A DNA stretch of 64,000 nt from Thermoproteota archaeon (GTDB lineage Archaea; Thermoproteota; Nitrososphaeria; Nitrososphaerales; Nitrosopumilaceae): contig QQVN01000003.1 of the NCBI GenBank assembly GCA_003352285.1, positions 124,001-188,000 on the forward strand. The letters are read 5' to 3'. The notes under the pieces are model-generated. The model made no database searches, was not told the origin of the DNA, and worked only from the letters and a program-made list of their open reading frames with translations. Of the stretch, positions 33,745 to 44,699 are shown piece after piece; within the stretch, counting starts at the first letter, position 1, and each line of letters opens with the position of its first letter. The translations under genes and the position numbers were made by a program.

Positions 33745-34197
33745 CTATCTTCGACGTTTTCCAGCTGTCTTTCGCTTTGTTCTAGATTTTGGCTTGCTTC
33801 TTCTAGTCTTAGCTGTCTTTCGCTTTGTTCTAGATTTTGGCTTGCTTCTTCTAGTCTTAGCTGTCTTTCGCTTTGTTCTAGATTTTGGCTTGCTTCTTCT
33901 AGTCTTAGCTGTCTTTCGCTTTGTTTTCTTAGTTGACTTTCGTGCAGACTTTCTTTTTGTTGTAGTCGATGATGCTTTTTTAGAACTTGATCTTCTTGAT
34001 TTGAGATTTTTTAGTTGTATTAAATCAATTTTCAATTTAGCAGTTTTTGCTGCAAGCTCTTGATCCACTGCCAAAAAATCTTTTCCATGTTTCTGATAGC
34101 ATTCTGGATGGAAAAGTCTACCATTGACGTATTTCATATTGTCGCGAGTTACGCCTTTTGTGCATGCAGCACAAATTCCAATGTATTCTTCTGCCAT
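33745..34197 (-). CDS. LIM-like zinc finger fused to a histone-H1-like basic repeat tail
   Basis: 150 residues. Residues 8-38 form a half-LIM or zinc-finger pattern: CAACTKGV, then GRLFHPECYQKHG (C-x2-C ... H-x2-C). A helix follows (QELAAKTAKLKIDLIQLKNL). From about residue 68 the chain is Lys/Arg/Ser/Thr-rich and includes three near-identical 16-residue units of the type KRKTAKTRRSKPKSRT, ending KRRR. The tail resembles histone H1 tails and should bind nucleic acid. Function not established; it heads the Elp3-LysRS run. Confidence 0.8.
   Translation of the reverse strand: MAEEYIGICAACTKGVTRDNMKYVNGRLFHPECYQKHGKDFLAVDQELAAKTAKLKIDLIQLKNLKSRRSSSKKASSTTTKRKSARKSTKKTKRKTAKTRRSKPKSRTKRKTAKTRRSKPKSRTKRKTAKTRRSKPKSRTKRKTAGKRRR
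33763..33925. repeat. 48-base tandem repeats in the basic tail
   Basis: Three full 48-base units start at 33763, 33811 and 33859, and a partial fourth starts at 33907; each begins AGCTGTCTTTCGC. They are in frame, each coding for 16 residues. The copies look identical by eye, so they are recent or kept alike by slippage or conversion. Confidence 0.9.
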
Positions 34198-36683: not shown

Positions 36684-37412
36684 TTACATGTACATGCCTG
36701 ATGTTTCTTCTCTACTCTGAGCATATTTTAGTGATAATTCTTCAAAGTCTTGCCCAATCTGATCTTTTTCATTTCGTAGATCACTTGTGTCAATATCTGT
36801 CTCGTACATTCTATTTACTGCCTCCAATAAGGTTAGTGCTGCAATAGGATCTGCCTTAATCCTGTTTGCTTTTACCAATAGAGTGACTCCTTGAATATCT
36901 CTCAAAAGACACTCGTTTAATATTCCGCCTGGGATTCCTGTGATGAATCCCTGTGGGATCATGTTGATTTCTTTATCTGCCATAACTCTACAAAGATCCT
37001 CCTCTGCGGCACAATATGCTTTATTGTCATGTTCATCACTTGCAACACCGTCTAGAATGATTATTTCCTTTGATCCTTTTTCTTTGGCCCAATCTAGTAT
37101 TGATGATACTATGGTGTATAGTCCTTCCATCCTAAGTGTAATCTCACAAATTATTGCACAAATAGTTCCTTCTTCGTTAGTATAGAATCTAAATGGATGT
37201 CTTAACCTACCTCTTAAAAAAACTGTAGATGGTGGAAGATATTTTGATCTCATATATGCTATTTCTTTCATTTTTAGTTTTTCAATAATGTGCCCAACTG
37301 ATAATGTTCCTACAAGACCTGCTCCTACAAAGCCTGCAAAAATTATAGGATTCTTTAATTCTATTTTTTTAATTTCATATACTTCAGCTTCTGGAAATTT
37401 ATTTTGAGTCAT
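36684..37412 (-). CDS. PAC2-family protein (proteasome assembly chaperone-like), copy 1
   Basis: 242 residues with PAC2 traits: ELKNPIIFAGFVGAGLVGTL at the start, FYTNEEGTICAIICEI, KEIIILDGVASDE and GFITGIPGGILNECL, then VKANRIKADPIAALTLLEAV. PAC2 proteins in eukaryotes help proteasome assembly. The archaeal members are widespread with uncertain role. Upstream of purM by 52 bases. A second, more divergent family member is at 47106. Confidence 0.88.
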   Translation of the reverse strand: MTQNKFPEAEVYEIKKIELKNPIIFAGFVGAGLVGTLSVGHIIEKLKMKEIAYMRSKYLPPSTVFLRGRLRHPFRFYTNEEGTICAIICEITLRMEGLYTIVSSILDWAKEKGSKEIIILDGVASDEHDNKAYCAAEEDLCRVMADKEINMIPQGFITGIPGGILNECLLRDIQGVTLLVKANRIKADPIAALTLLEAVNRMYETDIDTSDLRNEKDQIGQDFEELSLKYAQSREETSGMYM

Positions 37413-37491: not shown

Positions 37492-38241
37492 TTATTTTAC
37501 AATAACTATTCCTTTCATCCATGGGTGCACTTGACAAAAGTATGGATATTCTCCTGCAACATCAAACTTGTGTGAGTATGTATTTCCTGCAGTGTAAAAA
37601 CCACTGTCAAATCCATTTGGATAATCTACTCCTACAAGATCTTTATCTCCTTCAATGTCTCCTGCAGTGACAGTATGTCCTGCATCATCATTAACCCATA
37701 ACACCTCTCCGCCTACGGCGATGGTAACTTCATAAGGAATGTAACACTCATTTGTTTCCTCACATCCTGGAACTCCTGATCCAATTCCTAGTTCAACTTC
37801 TACTAATAACGGTAATTCCATCTCTGGTTCTGGCTCTACAACCATCTCTGGTTCTGGCTCTACAACCATCTCTGGTTCTGGCTCTACAACCATCTCTGGT
37901 TCTGGCTCTACAACCATCTCTGGTTCTGGCTCTACAACCATCTCTGGTTCTGGCTCAATCTGTGTTTCGGATTCCATAATTTCTGGTGTCTCTACTAATT
38001 TTACTTTCTTTTCTGATTTTGACTCTACATCTTTCTTACAAACTCCTTCATGTCTCATCTCTACATTCGCTGCATTTAGCATACAACTGTTTGAGTATGT
38101 CTTGGAATCTGCTCCGCAAACTGGGTTGTACTCTTTAGTACACATCATTTGTCCTGGCTCATCTCCTGATATCATTATCATTGCAATTACTGCCATGATA
38201 AGAAAAATCATTACTGCGATTAGTCCAGACTCAAACTTCAT
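37492..38241 (-). CDS. Membrane-anchored Kazal domain-cupredoxin fusion
   Basis: 249 residues. Residues 5-25 are a membrane anchor (LIAVMIFLIMAVIAMIMIS). Residues 34-68 form a Kazal serine-protease-inhibitor-like domain (CTKEYNPVCGADSKTYSNSC, then GVC). Residues about 96-143 are six EPEPEM units, an extended acidic rod. Residues about 150-249 are a plastocyanin-like cupredoxin with type 1 copper ligands: His in DDAGHTVTAG, and Cys, His and Met in YFCQVHPWMKGIV. It should display a copper electron carrier outside the membrane. Its own reactions and any inhibitor activity are unproven. Confidence 0.92.
   Translation of the reverse strand: MKFESGLIAVMIFLIMAVIAMIMISGDEPGQMMCTKEYNPVCGADSKTYSNSCMLNAANVEMRHEGVCKKDVESKSEKKVKLVETPEIMESETQIEPEPEMVVEPEPEMVVEPEPEMVVEPEPEMVVEPEPEMVVEPEPEMELPLLVEVELGIGSGVPGCEETNECYIPYEVTIAVGGEVLWVNDDAGHTVTAGDIEGDKDLVGVDYPNGFDSGFYTAGNTYSHKFDVAGEYPYFCQVHPWMKGIVIVK
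37819..37956. repeat. 24-base tandem repeats encoding EPEPEMVV
   Basis: Five full 24-base copies from 37819, each with the core TCTCTGGTTCTGGCTC, and a sixth partial copy. In frame, each adds eight residues to the spacer between the Kazal and copper domains. Copies appear identical, so their number may vary between strains. Confidence 0.92.
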
Positions 38242-38289: not shown

Positions 38290-38637
38290 CTATCTTGTTT
38301 CTTTCATGAATAAGTTGAGCATAGTTATGCCCTTGTCTGTAATAGTGTAGATTACATTAGACCCAACTGACTCTTTTCTGATAAAACTATAGTCAATACA
38401 CAAGTGTAGGTAATTGAGAAATGATCTCTTCATTCGTATCTTTGACTTTACGTATAGATCAGAGAATGTCATTGGATTTCGCTTTAATTGATAGAGTAGT
38501 TTTAGGAGTGAAAGAGTACTGTAATCCCTTGTACGTGCCTTTACAGCATCCAAAACTTGTTCATCCCTCTTTATTATGAAATCCTCTAATTGATCGGCTA
38601 CCTCTAAAGGTATGTAAGTTAATCTTGCTTTCATCAT
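38290..38637 (-). CDS. Winged-helix transcriptional regulator
   Basis: 115 residues, a single winged-helix domain. After helices DQLEDFIIKRDEQVLDAV and YSTLSLLKLLYQLKRN comes MTFSDLYVKSKIRMKRSFLN (helix-turn-helix), and YTITDKGITMLNLF closes the wing. The length and form resemble PadR/ArsR-like archaeal regulators. A perfect palindrome spans its start (38636-38654), so it is likely to repress itself. It could also control the Kazal-cupredoxin gene 48 bases downstream on the same strand. Confidence 0.82.
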   Translation of the reverse strand: MMKARLTYIPLEVADQLEDFIIKRDEQVLDAVKARTRDYSTLSLLKLLYQLKRNPMTFSDLYVKSKIRMKRSFLNYLHLCIDYSFIRKESVGSNVIYTITDKGITMLNLFMKETR

Positions 38638-43550: not shown

Positions 43551-44699
43551 TTAATTGAAATTTGGTCTTTCTTCTAAAACCAGTACAAAATTACTAGTTC
43601 TGCCATCTCTTAACACTTCTAAATTAATTTCATCTCCAACCGATTTTTCACGTTGCAAATGGATTAAAATGTCGTCAATCTTTCTTACTTTCTTTCCATC
43701 AACTTCTAGTATGACATCTCCTCCAATAGGATAATTCACTCCGTCAATCTGTTTTGTATCTGTTGAACCATGTAGTCCTGCTTTCTCTGCTGGACTTCCT
43801 TCGATAACTGATACGATAAGAAATCCTCTTGCTTCATTAAGATTTAACACACTTGCCAAATCAGGATCGATATCTCTTCCTGTGATGCCTAACCATGGAT
43901 GATGATAACTACCATCTTCAATCAGTGTGGGAACAATCTTTGAGATAGTATTTGATGGAACTGCAAAGCCAACGCCTGTAAATTCACCTGTAGTGGATTG
44001 GATGGCAGTATTGATTCCAATCACTTGGCCTCTCATGTTAATTAACGGTCCTCCGGAATTTCCTGGGTTAATTGCTGCATCCGTTTGTATGACATCTGGA
44101 ATAGAAAATCCACTATCTTGTGATGGAAGTAAGCGACCTAATTGACTGATAATACCTGCTGTCATTGAGCCTGACAGTCCAAAGGGATTTCCGATAGCTG
44201 CAATCTGTTCTCCGACTTTTAATTTTGATGAATCTCCAATTGATAGTGGGTGTAAAAGTGATTTATCAACTTCAACTCTAATCACTGCAACATCTGTAAA
44301 AATATCTGAACCAACTAATTCTGCTTTGTATGATGTACCATCTAGAAAAGTAACCTCAATTTTTTTTGCATCTTCTACCACATGTGCATTTGTAATGATA
44401 TGTCCCCTAACATCATATACAAAACCTGAACCCACACCACTTCCAGTAGTTTGCGTGGTACGTTGGACATTGACTCTGACCACTCCTGCTTCTGATTGTT
44501 CAAAAATTTGAATCAACGATAATGGCTTTGCTGCTGTAATAGGAGTTGTTTCGCCAACTGTGGTCACACTATGACCATTTGATACGACTAGATCCTTGGG
44601 AGGTTGCATTGATGGAGGTGGATTAAGTAAAACAACAAAAATTACTAAAACTAATGTCACTCCAAGAGCGCCACTAACAATTACTCCTGATTTATCCAA
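43551..44699 (-). CDS. HtrA/DegP-family serine protease with PDZ domain
   Basis: 382 residues from a TTG. A membrane anchor near residues 8-25 (VSGALGVTLVLVIFVVLL) puts the enzyme outside the membrane. The trypsin-like triad is His in ITNAHVVED, Asp in SDIFTDVAVIRVE and Ser in NPGNSGGPLIN. One PDZ domain starts near residue 275 (ARGFLIVSVIEGSPAEKAGL) and ends ILIHLQREKSVGDEINLEVL. It probably degrades damaged exported proteins. It lies just upstream of cofG. Confidence 0.94.
   Translation of the reverse strand: MDKSGVIVSGALGVTLVLVIFVVLLNPPPSMQPPKDLVVSNGHSVTTVGETTPITAAKPLSLIQIFEQSEAGVVRVNVQRTTQTTGSGVGSGFVYDVRGHIITNAHVVEDAKKIEVTFLDGTSYKAELVGSDIFTDVAVIRVEVDKSLLHPLSIGDSSKLKVGEQIAAIGNPFGLSGSMTAGIISQLGRLLPSQDSGFSIPDVIQTDAAINPGNSGGPLINMRGQVIGINTAIQSTTGEFTGVGFAVPSNTISKIVPTLIEDGSYHHPWLGITGRDIDPDLASVLNLNEARGFLIVSVIEGSPAEKAGLHGSTDTKQIDGVNYPIGGDVILEVDGKKVRKIDDILIHLQREKSVGDEINLEVLRDGRTSNFVLVLEERPNFN

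Follow-up and report, generated by a model that had tools for sequence, protein, structure and literature searches.

A Kazal domain fused to a membrane-anchored cupredoxin in ammonia-oxidising archaea

The sequence analysed here is a 64,000-nucleotide stretch of a Nitrosopumilaceae contig (QQVN01000003.1), hereinafter designated the window. One open reading frame, with an ATG start, encodes a chain of 249 residues composed of an N-terminal membrane anchor, a four-cysteine Kazal domain, an EPEPEM spacer and a C-terminal cupredoxin (Table 1). The first-pass annotation had read an anchor, a Kazal-type cysteine pattern, six EPEPEM units and a His/Cys/His/Met site from this single chain, and all of them are located where it placed them. 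Acidic residues follow the anchor, suggesting that the remainder of the protein lies outside the membrane. The gene has a PAC2-family gene downstream and a gene for a 115-residue protein upstream; the latter has no Pfam match, so its HTH label is a guess from sequence. A sister species of the same genus (G001; the genus is designated g1) carries a syntenic copy of the fusion with the same neighbours and 90% identity. Protein changes between the two g1 species are few, with pN/pS of 0.04 for the cupredoxin and 0.12 for the Kazal domain (small counts).

Table 1. Location of the fusion gene, its parts and its neighbours in the window.
Feature	Position	Strand	Basis
Fusion gene: membrane anchor, four-Cys Kazal domain, EPEPEM spacer, cupredoxin	37492..38241	-	ORF list, Pfam, syntenic copy
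N-terminal hydrophobic anchor, residues ~4-25	38167..38232	-	Sequence; helix 3-24 in AF2 model
Kazal domain, residues 34-68, C-x7-C-x10-C-x14-C	38038..38142	-	PF00050, 2m5x/4hgu match, AF2
Predicted reactive-site bond P1 Lys36 - P1' Glu37 (CTK/EY, bond at the stroke)	38131..38136	-	Gapless GmSPI-2 alignment
EPEPEM/VV tandem repeat, 24-nt unit, residues 96-141	37818..37956	-	TRF, repeat dissection
Cupredoxin, residues ~146-249, ligands H189, C236, H239, M242	37495..37806	-	PF00127, alignment
PAC2-family gene, downstream neighbour of the fusion	36684..37412	-	PF09754
115-aa HTH-like gene, upstream neighbour of the fusion	38290..38637	-	Synteny

The Kazal_1 profile (PF00050) matches residues 32-65 with 47.7 bits (E 1.5e-12; gathering cut-off 21). 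Classical Kazal inhibitors (MEROPS I1) contain six cysteines, which form disulfides I-V, II-IV and III-VI. The domain in the window has four cysteines and is without the classical I-V pair. Specifically, cysteines II, III, IV and VI alone are present in 33 of the 33 distinct fusions described below, and all 33 have the C-x7-C-x10-C-x14-C spacing of the non-classical type represented by GmSPI-2. The cysteine pattern first noticed in the sequence agrees with the family profile, with the refinement that it comprises four cysteines and not six. An AF2 model of the domain built on an alignment of 47 prokaryotic Kazal domains has a pLDDT of 94, and its top PDB match by fold is 4hgu (GmSPI-2; TM 0.90); AF2 on the full chain has low confidence over this region, and the region folds well with the deep alignment. 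Profile, fold and canonical reactive loop all identify a Kazal domain. Across the 47 prokaryotic domains, the P2 Thr never varies, and neither does the TYxN Asn. In the ovomucoid third domain, the P2 Thr and the loop Asn brace the inhibitory loop. As judged from its sequence, the domain in the window could in principle inhibit a protease. The P1 residue is Met in 26, Lys in 4 and Leu in 3 of the fusions; Met, the commonest P1 in the relatives, does not point to one protease class.

The initial statement that Kazal domains are mainly eukaryotic is out of date, as prokaryotic relatives are common. The species-genome collection contains 547 such stretches, many of them in Patescibacteria, Myxococcota, Gammaproteobacteria and Saprospiraceae. 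The Kazal domain of the window is identical at 22-23 of 35 positions to those of the other fusions, of metallo-beta-lactamase-fold proteins and of bacteria, and to GmSPI-2, so these identities favour no single source for the domain.

Other arrangements of Kazal domains were also observed. Bacterial proteins of Gammaproteobacteria, other Proteobacteria and Saprospiraceae (L123, L151, L163, L165, L167, L169 and L170) carry six or more Kazal domains in tandem. The window's genome has a second Kazal gene (L023; G000:C3:26063-26179), whose product, an exported protein of ~750 residues, resembles proteins of several genera that combine a Kazal domain with a metallo-beta-lactamase fold; the related L024 is confirmed by Pfam.

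The Copper-bind profile (PF00127) matches the C-terminal 83 residues of the fusion with 36.7 bits (E 5.7e-9; cut-off 21.2). A domain search thus places both halves of the chain above the Pfam gathering scores, in agreement with the domains originally assigned. The four ligands fall in nearly invariant alignment columns, and CxxHxxM is kept in 55 of 55 scored copper domains, so that the copper site first read from one sequence is conserved in close relatives. Ahead of the first copper ligand lies another conserved pair of cysteines, C160 and C166. Profile and His-Cys-His-Met ligands assign the domain to the cupredoxin (plastocyanin/azurin) superfamily. Its CxxHxxM spacing is that of amicyanin; against the NCBIfam equivalogs for amicyanin and plastocyanin proper it scores far below the cut-offs (34.1 vs 110.2 bits and 29.6 vs 87.85 bits, respectively). 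The nearest solved proteins are both from Nitrosopumilus maritimus, namely 9cck by sequence and 5fc9 by fold. The domain is therefore a predicted type 1 copper protein, which would be loaded with copper and would transfer electrons.

Repeat dissection upholds the exact count of six EPEPEM units in the window as assembled. Five VVEPEPEM copies are identical in DNA, and TRF reports a 24-nt period, 5.8 copies and a 100% match. The copy in G001 has three intact EPEPEM units and one ESEPEM, indicating that the repeat number differs between species. The spacers of the 33 fusions range from 7 to 251 residues and consist of EP repeats, of almost nothing (L107) or of other material. Thus the EPEPEM rod is not essential, and the rod seen here is just one of the forms that the variable spacer takes, and no fixed part. 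A likeness to trypanosome procyclin (PF05887; 33 bits vs a cut-off of 100) merely reflects EP-repeat composition.

Repeats vary at other loci as well. A small protein encoded in the window (33745-34197, reverse strand) has a Cys-rich start followed by a Lys/Arg-rich tandem repeat (KRKTAKTRRSKPKSRT), and is 150 residues long here vs 134 in the sister species, which is another change in repeat number. In genus g18, Kazal domains are joined to paired repeats containing DPGLGHESHQL, and related repeats lie between the Kazal and copper domains of the g15 fusions, which are mosaics of these two arrangements (L017, L011, L015; also L065 6914-8611).

The variation of the spacer in length and content bears on the role of the Kazal domain. 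The Kazal domains of follistatin and agrin have binding roles and are not inhibitory. By analogy, the Kazal domain of the fusion might be a structural or binding module by which the copper protein attaches to a partner or to the S-layer, leaving the work to the copper domain. Such a role would suit the variable spacer, the use of Kazal domains as a general accessory module in unrelated exported proteins of the family (for example those with a metallo-beta-lactamase fold), and the fact that genera g3, g14 and g16 have this anchored cupredoxin in a form lacking the Kazal domain. However, the frame of the canonical loop, made up of the P2 Thr, the TYxN Asn and the four cysteines, does not vary, and among solved structures the nearest is that of a potent inhibitor. 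We consider a non-inhibitory role unlikely, though a serious competitor to inhibition.

Kazal domains are found in 20 of 101 related genomes and in 7 of 48 genera. Pooling the related genomes with a scan of species genomes yields 33 distinct fusions of a Kazal domain with a cupredoxin, every one of them from an archaeon of the Nitrosopumilaceae type; one of the loci, L057, encodes four copper domains in a single chain. Among the best 80 loci, fusions are carried only by Nitrosopumilus, Nitrosarchaeum and other thaumarchaeal or unclassified archaeal records, in a scan that used a local copper-domain profile and could miss bacterial cupredoxins unlike it. The fusion is real and recurrent. In principle, a perfect 24-nt repeat in the middle of the gene could misassemble, and the repeat count does differ between the two genomes, but an assembly or gene-calling artefact is refuted by the second g1 genome with the same gene and neighbours and by 31 further distinct fusions in other genomes, and we assign it practically no probability. 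A viral origin was also considered and set aside, since the 37 pattern matches in viral contigs included no locus coding for a relative.

The fusions occupy different chromosomal sites. Genera g4, g12, g15 and g19 share one conserved site for the fusion, next to a HEAT-repeat gene and genes of DNA repair (Rad50/Mre11/HerA-like). In g14 and g16, an anchored cupredoxin without a Kazal domain is located at this site, and in g1 the site holds neither a fusion nor an anchored cupredoxin gene. The g1 fusion is instead located between the 115-aa HTH-like gene and the PAC2 gene; in the other genera where the 115-aa gene directly precedes PAC2, no fusion lies in between.

Most of the family has conserved the HEAT-repeat protein (162 residues; L055 6783-7268 and equivalents) next to the Rad50/Mre11/HerA-like genes, and it serves as a landmark for a site where anchored cupredoxins, with or without a Kazal domain, come and go. 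A Kazal-less anchored cupredoxin at this site in G012 (L091 3401-4207) has a very divergent copper domain that keeps the CLLHTWM motif.

In the copper-domain tree, the g1 fusion domain is sister to the PEFG-tailed cupredoxin of g1 itself (bootstrap 99 to 100%), and a single clade for all fusion copper domains is rejected (AU p 0.00014). The synonymous difference between the g1 fusion and its PEFG paralogue is 0.70, vs ~0.10 between the two g1 species. As judged by these differences, the split is old, and recent gene conversion between fusion and paralogue is unlikely. The different site and the sister relationship to the PEFG paralogue indicate that the architecture was either assembled twice or moved with a swap of the copper domain; the 35-residue Kazal domain does not discriminate between the two. 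A tentative reading, which we hold to be possible but clearly short of an even chance, is that marine ammonia-oxidising archaea evolved anchored Kazal-spacer-cupredoxins on two or more occasions, each time with another cupredoxin gene and at another site. Selection would therefore repeatedly have coupled an inhibitor of subtilisin-type proteases to an electron carrier of the cell surface, giving the copper layer that transfers electrons a built-in guard against proteases.

Candidate targets of the inhibitor are encoded in nearly all of these genomes. A typical thaumarchaeon has about two S8A subtilases, and most of these enzymes are reported to be anchored in the membrane (PMC6790972). The window's genome itself encodes an S8 catalytic domain (G000:C4:166098-167264). 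S8 proteases are present in 91 of the 101 relatives vs 20 of 101 for Kazal domains, so there is no one-to-one pairing and presence and absence are uninformative on this point. An HtrA-type protease (Trypsin_2 and PDZ; 43551-44699, reverse strand) is indeed encoded in the window, as pointed out at first, but it is unlinked to the fusion elsewhere: no homologue of it is found within the 14-16 kb around the fusion in the other fusion genera, and HtrA was rejected as the partner.

The target might also be foreign, namely proteases of heterotrophic bacteria, grazers or animal hosts. The patchy distribution over 7 of 48 genera would fit such a target, and two reports read the serpins and a Kazal protein of sponge-associated thaumarchaea as defensive (PMC6790972, PMC6697440). 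However, large foreign proteases are unlikely to reach a domain anchored near the membrane under the S-layer, and many Nitrosopumilus and Nitrosarchaeum genomes with the domain have titles naming no host. We regard an inhibitor aimed at foreign proteases, and not at the cell's own, as quite improbable.

The genome of the window encodes AmoA, identifying the cell as an ammonia oxidiser. Blue copper proteins are numerous in such archaea, and the role of cytochrome c as electron carrier is thought to be taken in them by plastocyanin-like proteins (PMC9038741). In the reading we prefer, which we put at an even chance on the basis of the domains and motifs, the fusion product carries electrons while tethered to the membrane, and its inhibitor domain is active, holding back proteases of the subtilisin or trypsin kind in its vicinity. 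Specifically, it would be a type 1 copper protein tethered to the membrane in the pseudoperiplasm, with the cupredoxin head carrying electrons. The membrane-proximal Kazal domain, of the four-cysteine GmSPI-2 type, would inhibit serine proteases by the standard mechanism, with its CTK/EY loop plugging the active site of such an enzyme, subtilisin-like or trypsin-like. The inhibitor would thereby protect the copper protein, and whatever lies next to it, against S8 proteases that the cell itself anchors in its membrane or against proteases arriving from outside. The EP-rich spacer would keep the head off the membrane and become longer or shorter through repeat slippage. The protected electron carrier suggested by the first-pass annotation is compatible with the kept inhibitory loop, the complete copper site and the predicted anchor. 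How exposed copper proteins survive beside cell-surface proteases is not addressed in the literature we found, and the fusion hints that it may be important for these archaea to guard them. The fusion product, which brings its own inhibitor, occurs in several genera and was seemingly rebuilt on a different copper domain, is also a small, easily expressed test protein.

Our literature search, with most subscription papers outside its coverage, retrieved no description of the fusion; automatic genome annotation may already name Kazal-cupredoxin proteins. Both domain families are known, and what is new here is the separate site of the g1 fusion and the kinship of its copper domain to the PEFG-anchored cupredoxin of g1. 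By description, the fusion is like arCOG10350 of the sponge thaumarchaeon Ca. N. detritiferus in that a Kazal annotation occurs in a thaumarchaeon, whereas the accessible text on arCOG10350 mentions no copper domain (PMC6697440). It shares the cupredoxin fold with N. maritimus 5fc9 (a purple cupredoxin) and 9cck (the C-terminal cupredoxin domain of a multicopper oxidase), although these chains as solved contain neither a Kazal domain nor an EP spacer. The copper domain is 83% identical to, and sister in the tree to, that of the PEFG-tailed one-cupredoxin proteins of Nitrosopumilaceae (G000:C2, L063), which, unlike the fusion, have an N-terminal cupredoxin, a C-terminal PEFG-like anchor and no Kazal domain. 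GmSPI-2 is an insect inhibitor of subtilisin and proteinase K with four cysteines, disulfides 5-24 and 13-39, and P1 Thr7 (PMC4169406). The Kazal domain of the window has the same cysteine spacing as GmSPI-2 (2m5x/4hgu), with 22 of 35 residues identical without gaps and a TM of 0.90. In contrast to GmSPI-2, which is a free secreted protein of 36 residues with P1 Thr, it has Lys at P1 and forms part of a tethered chain, flanked by a membrane helix on one side and a copper protein on the other.
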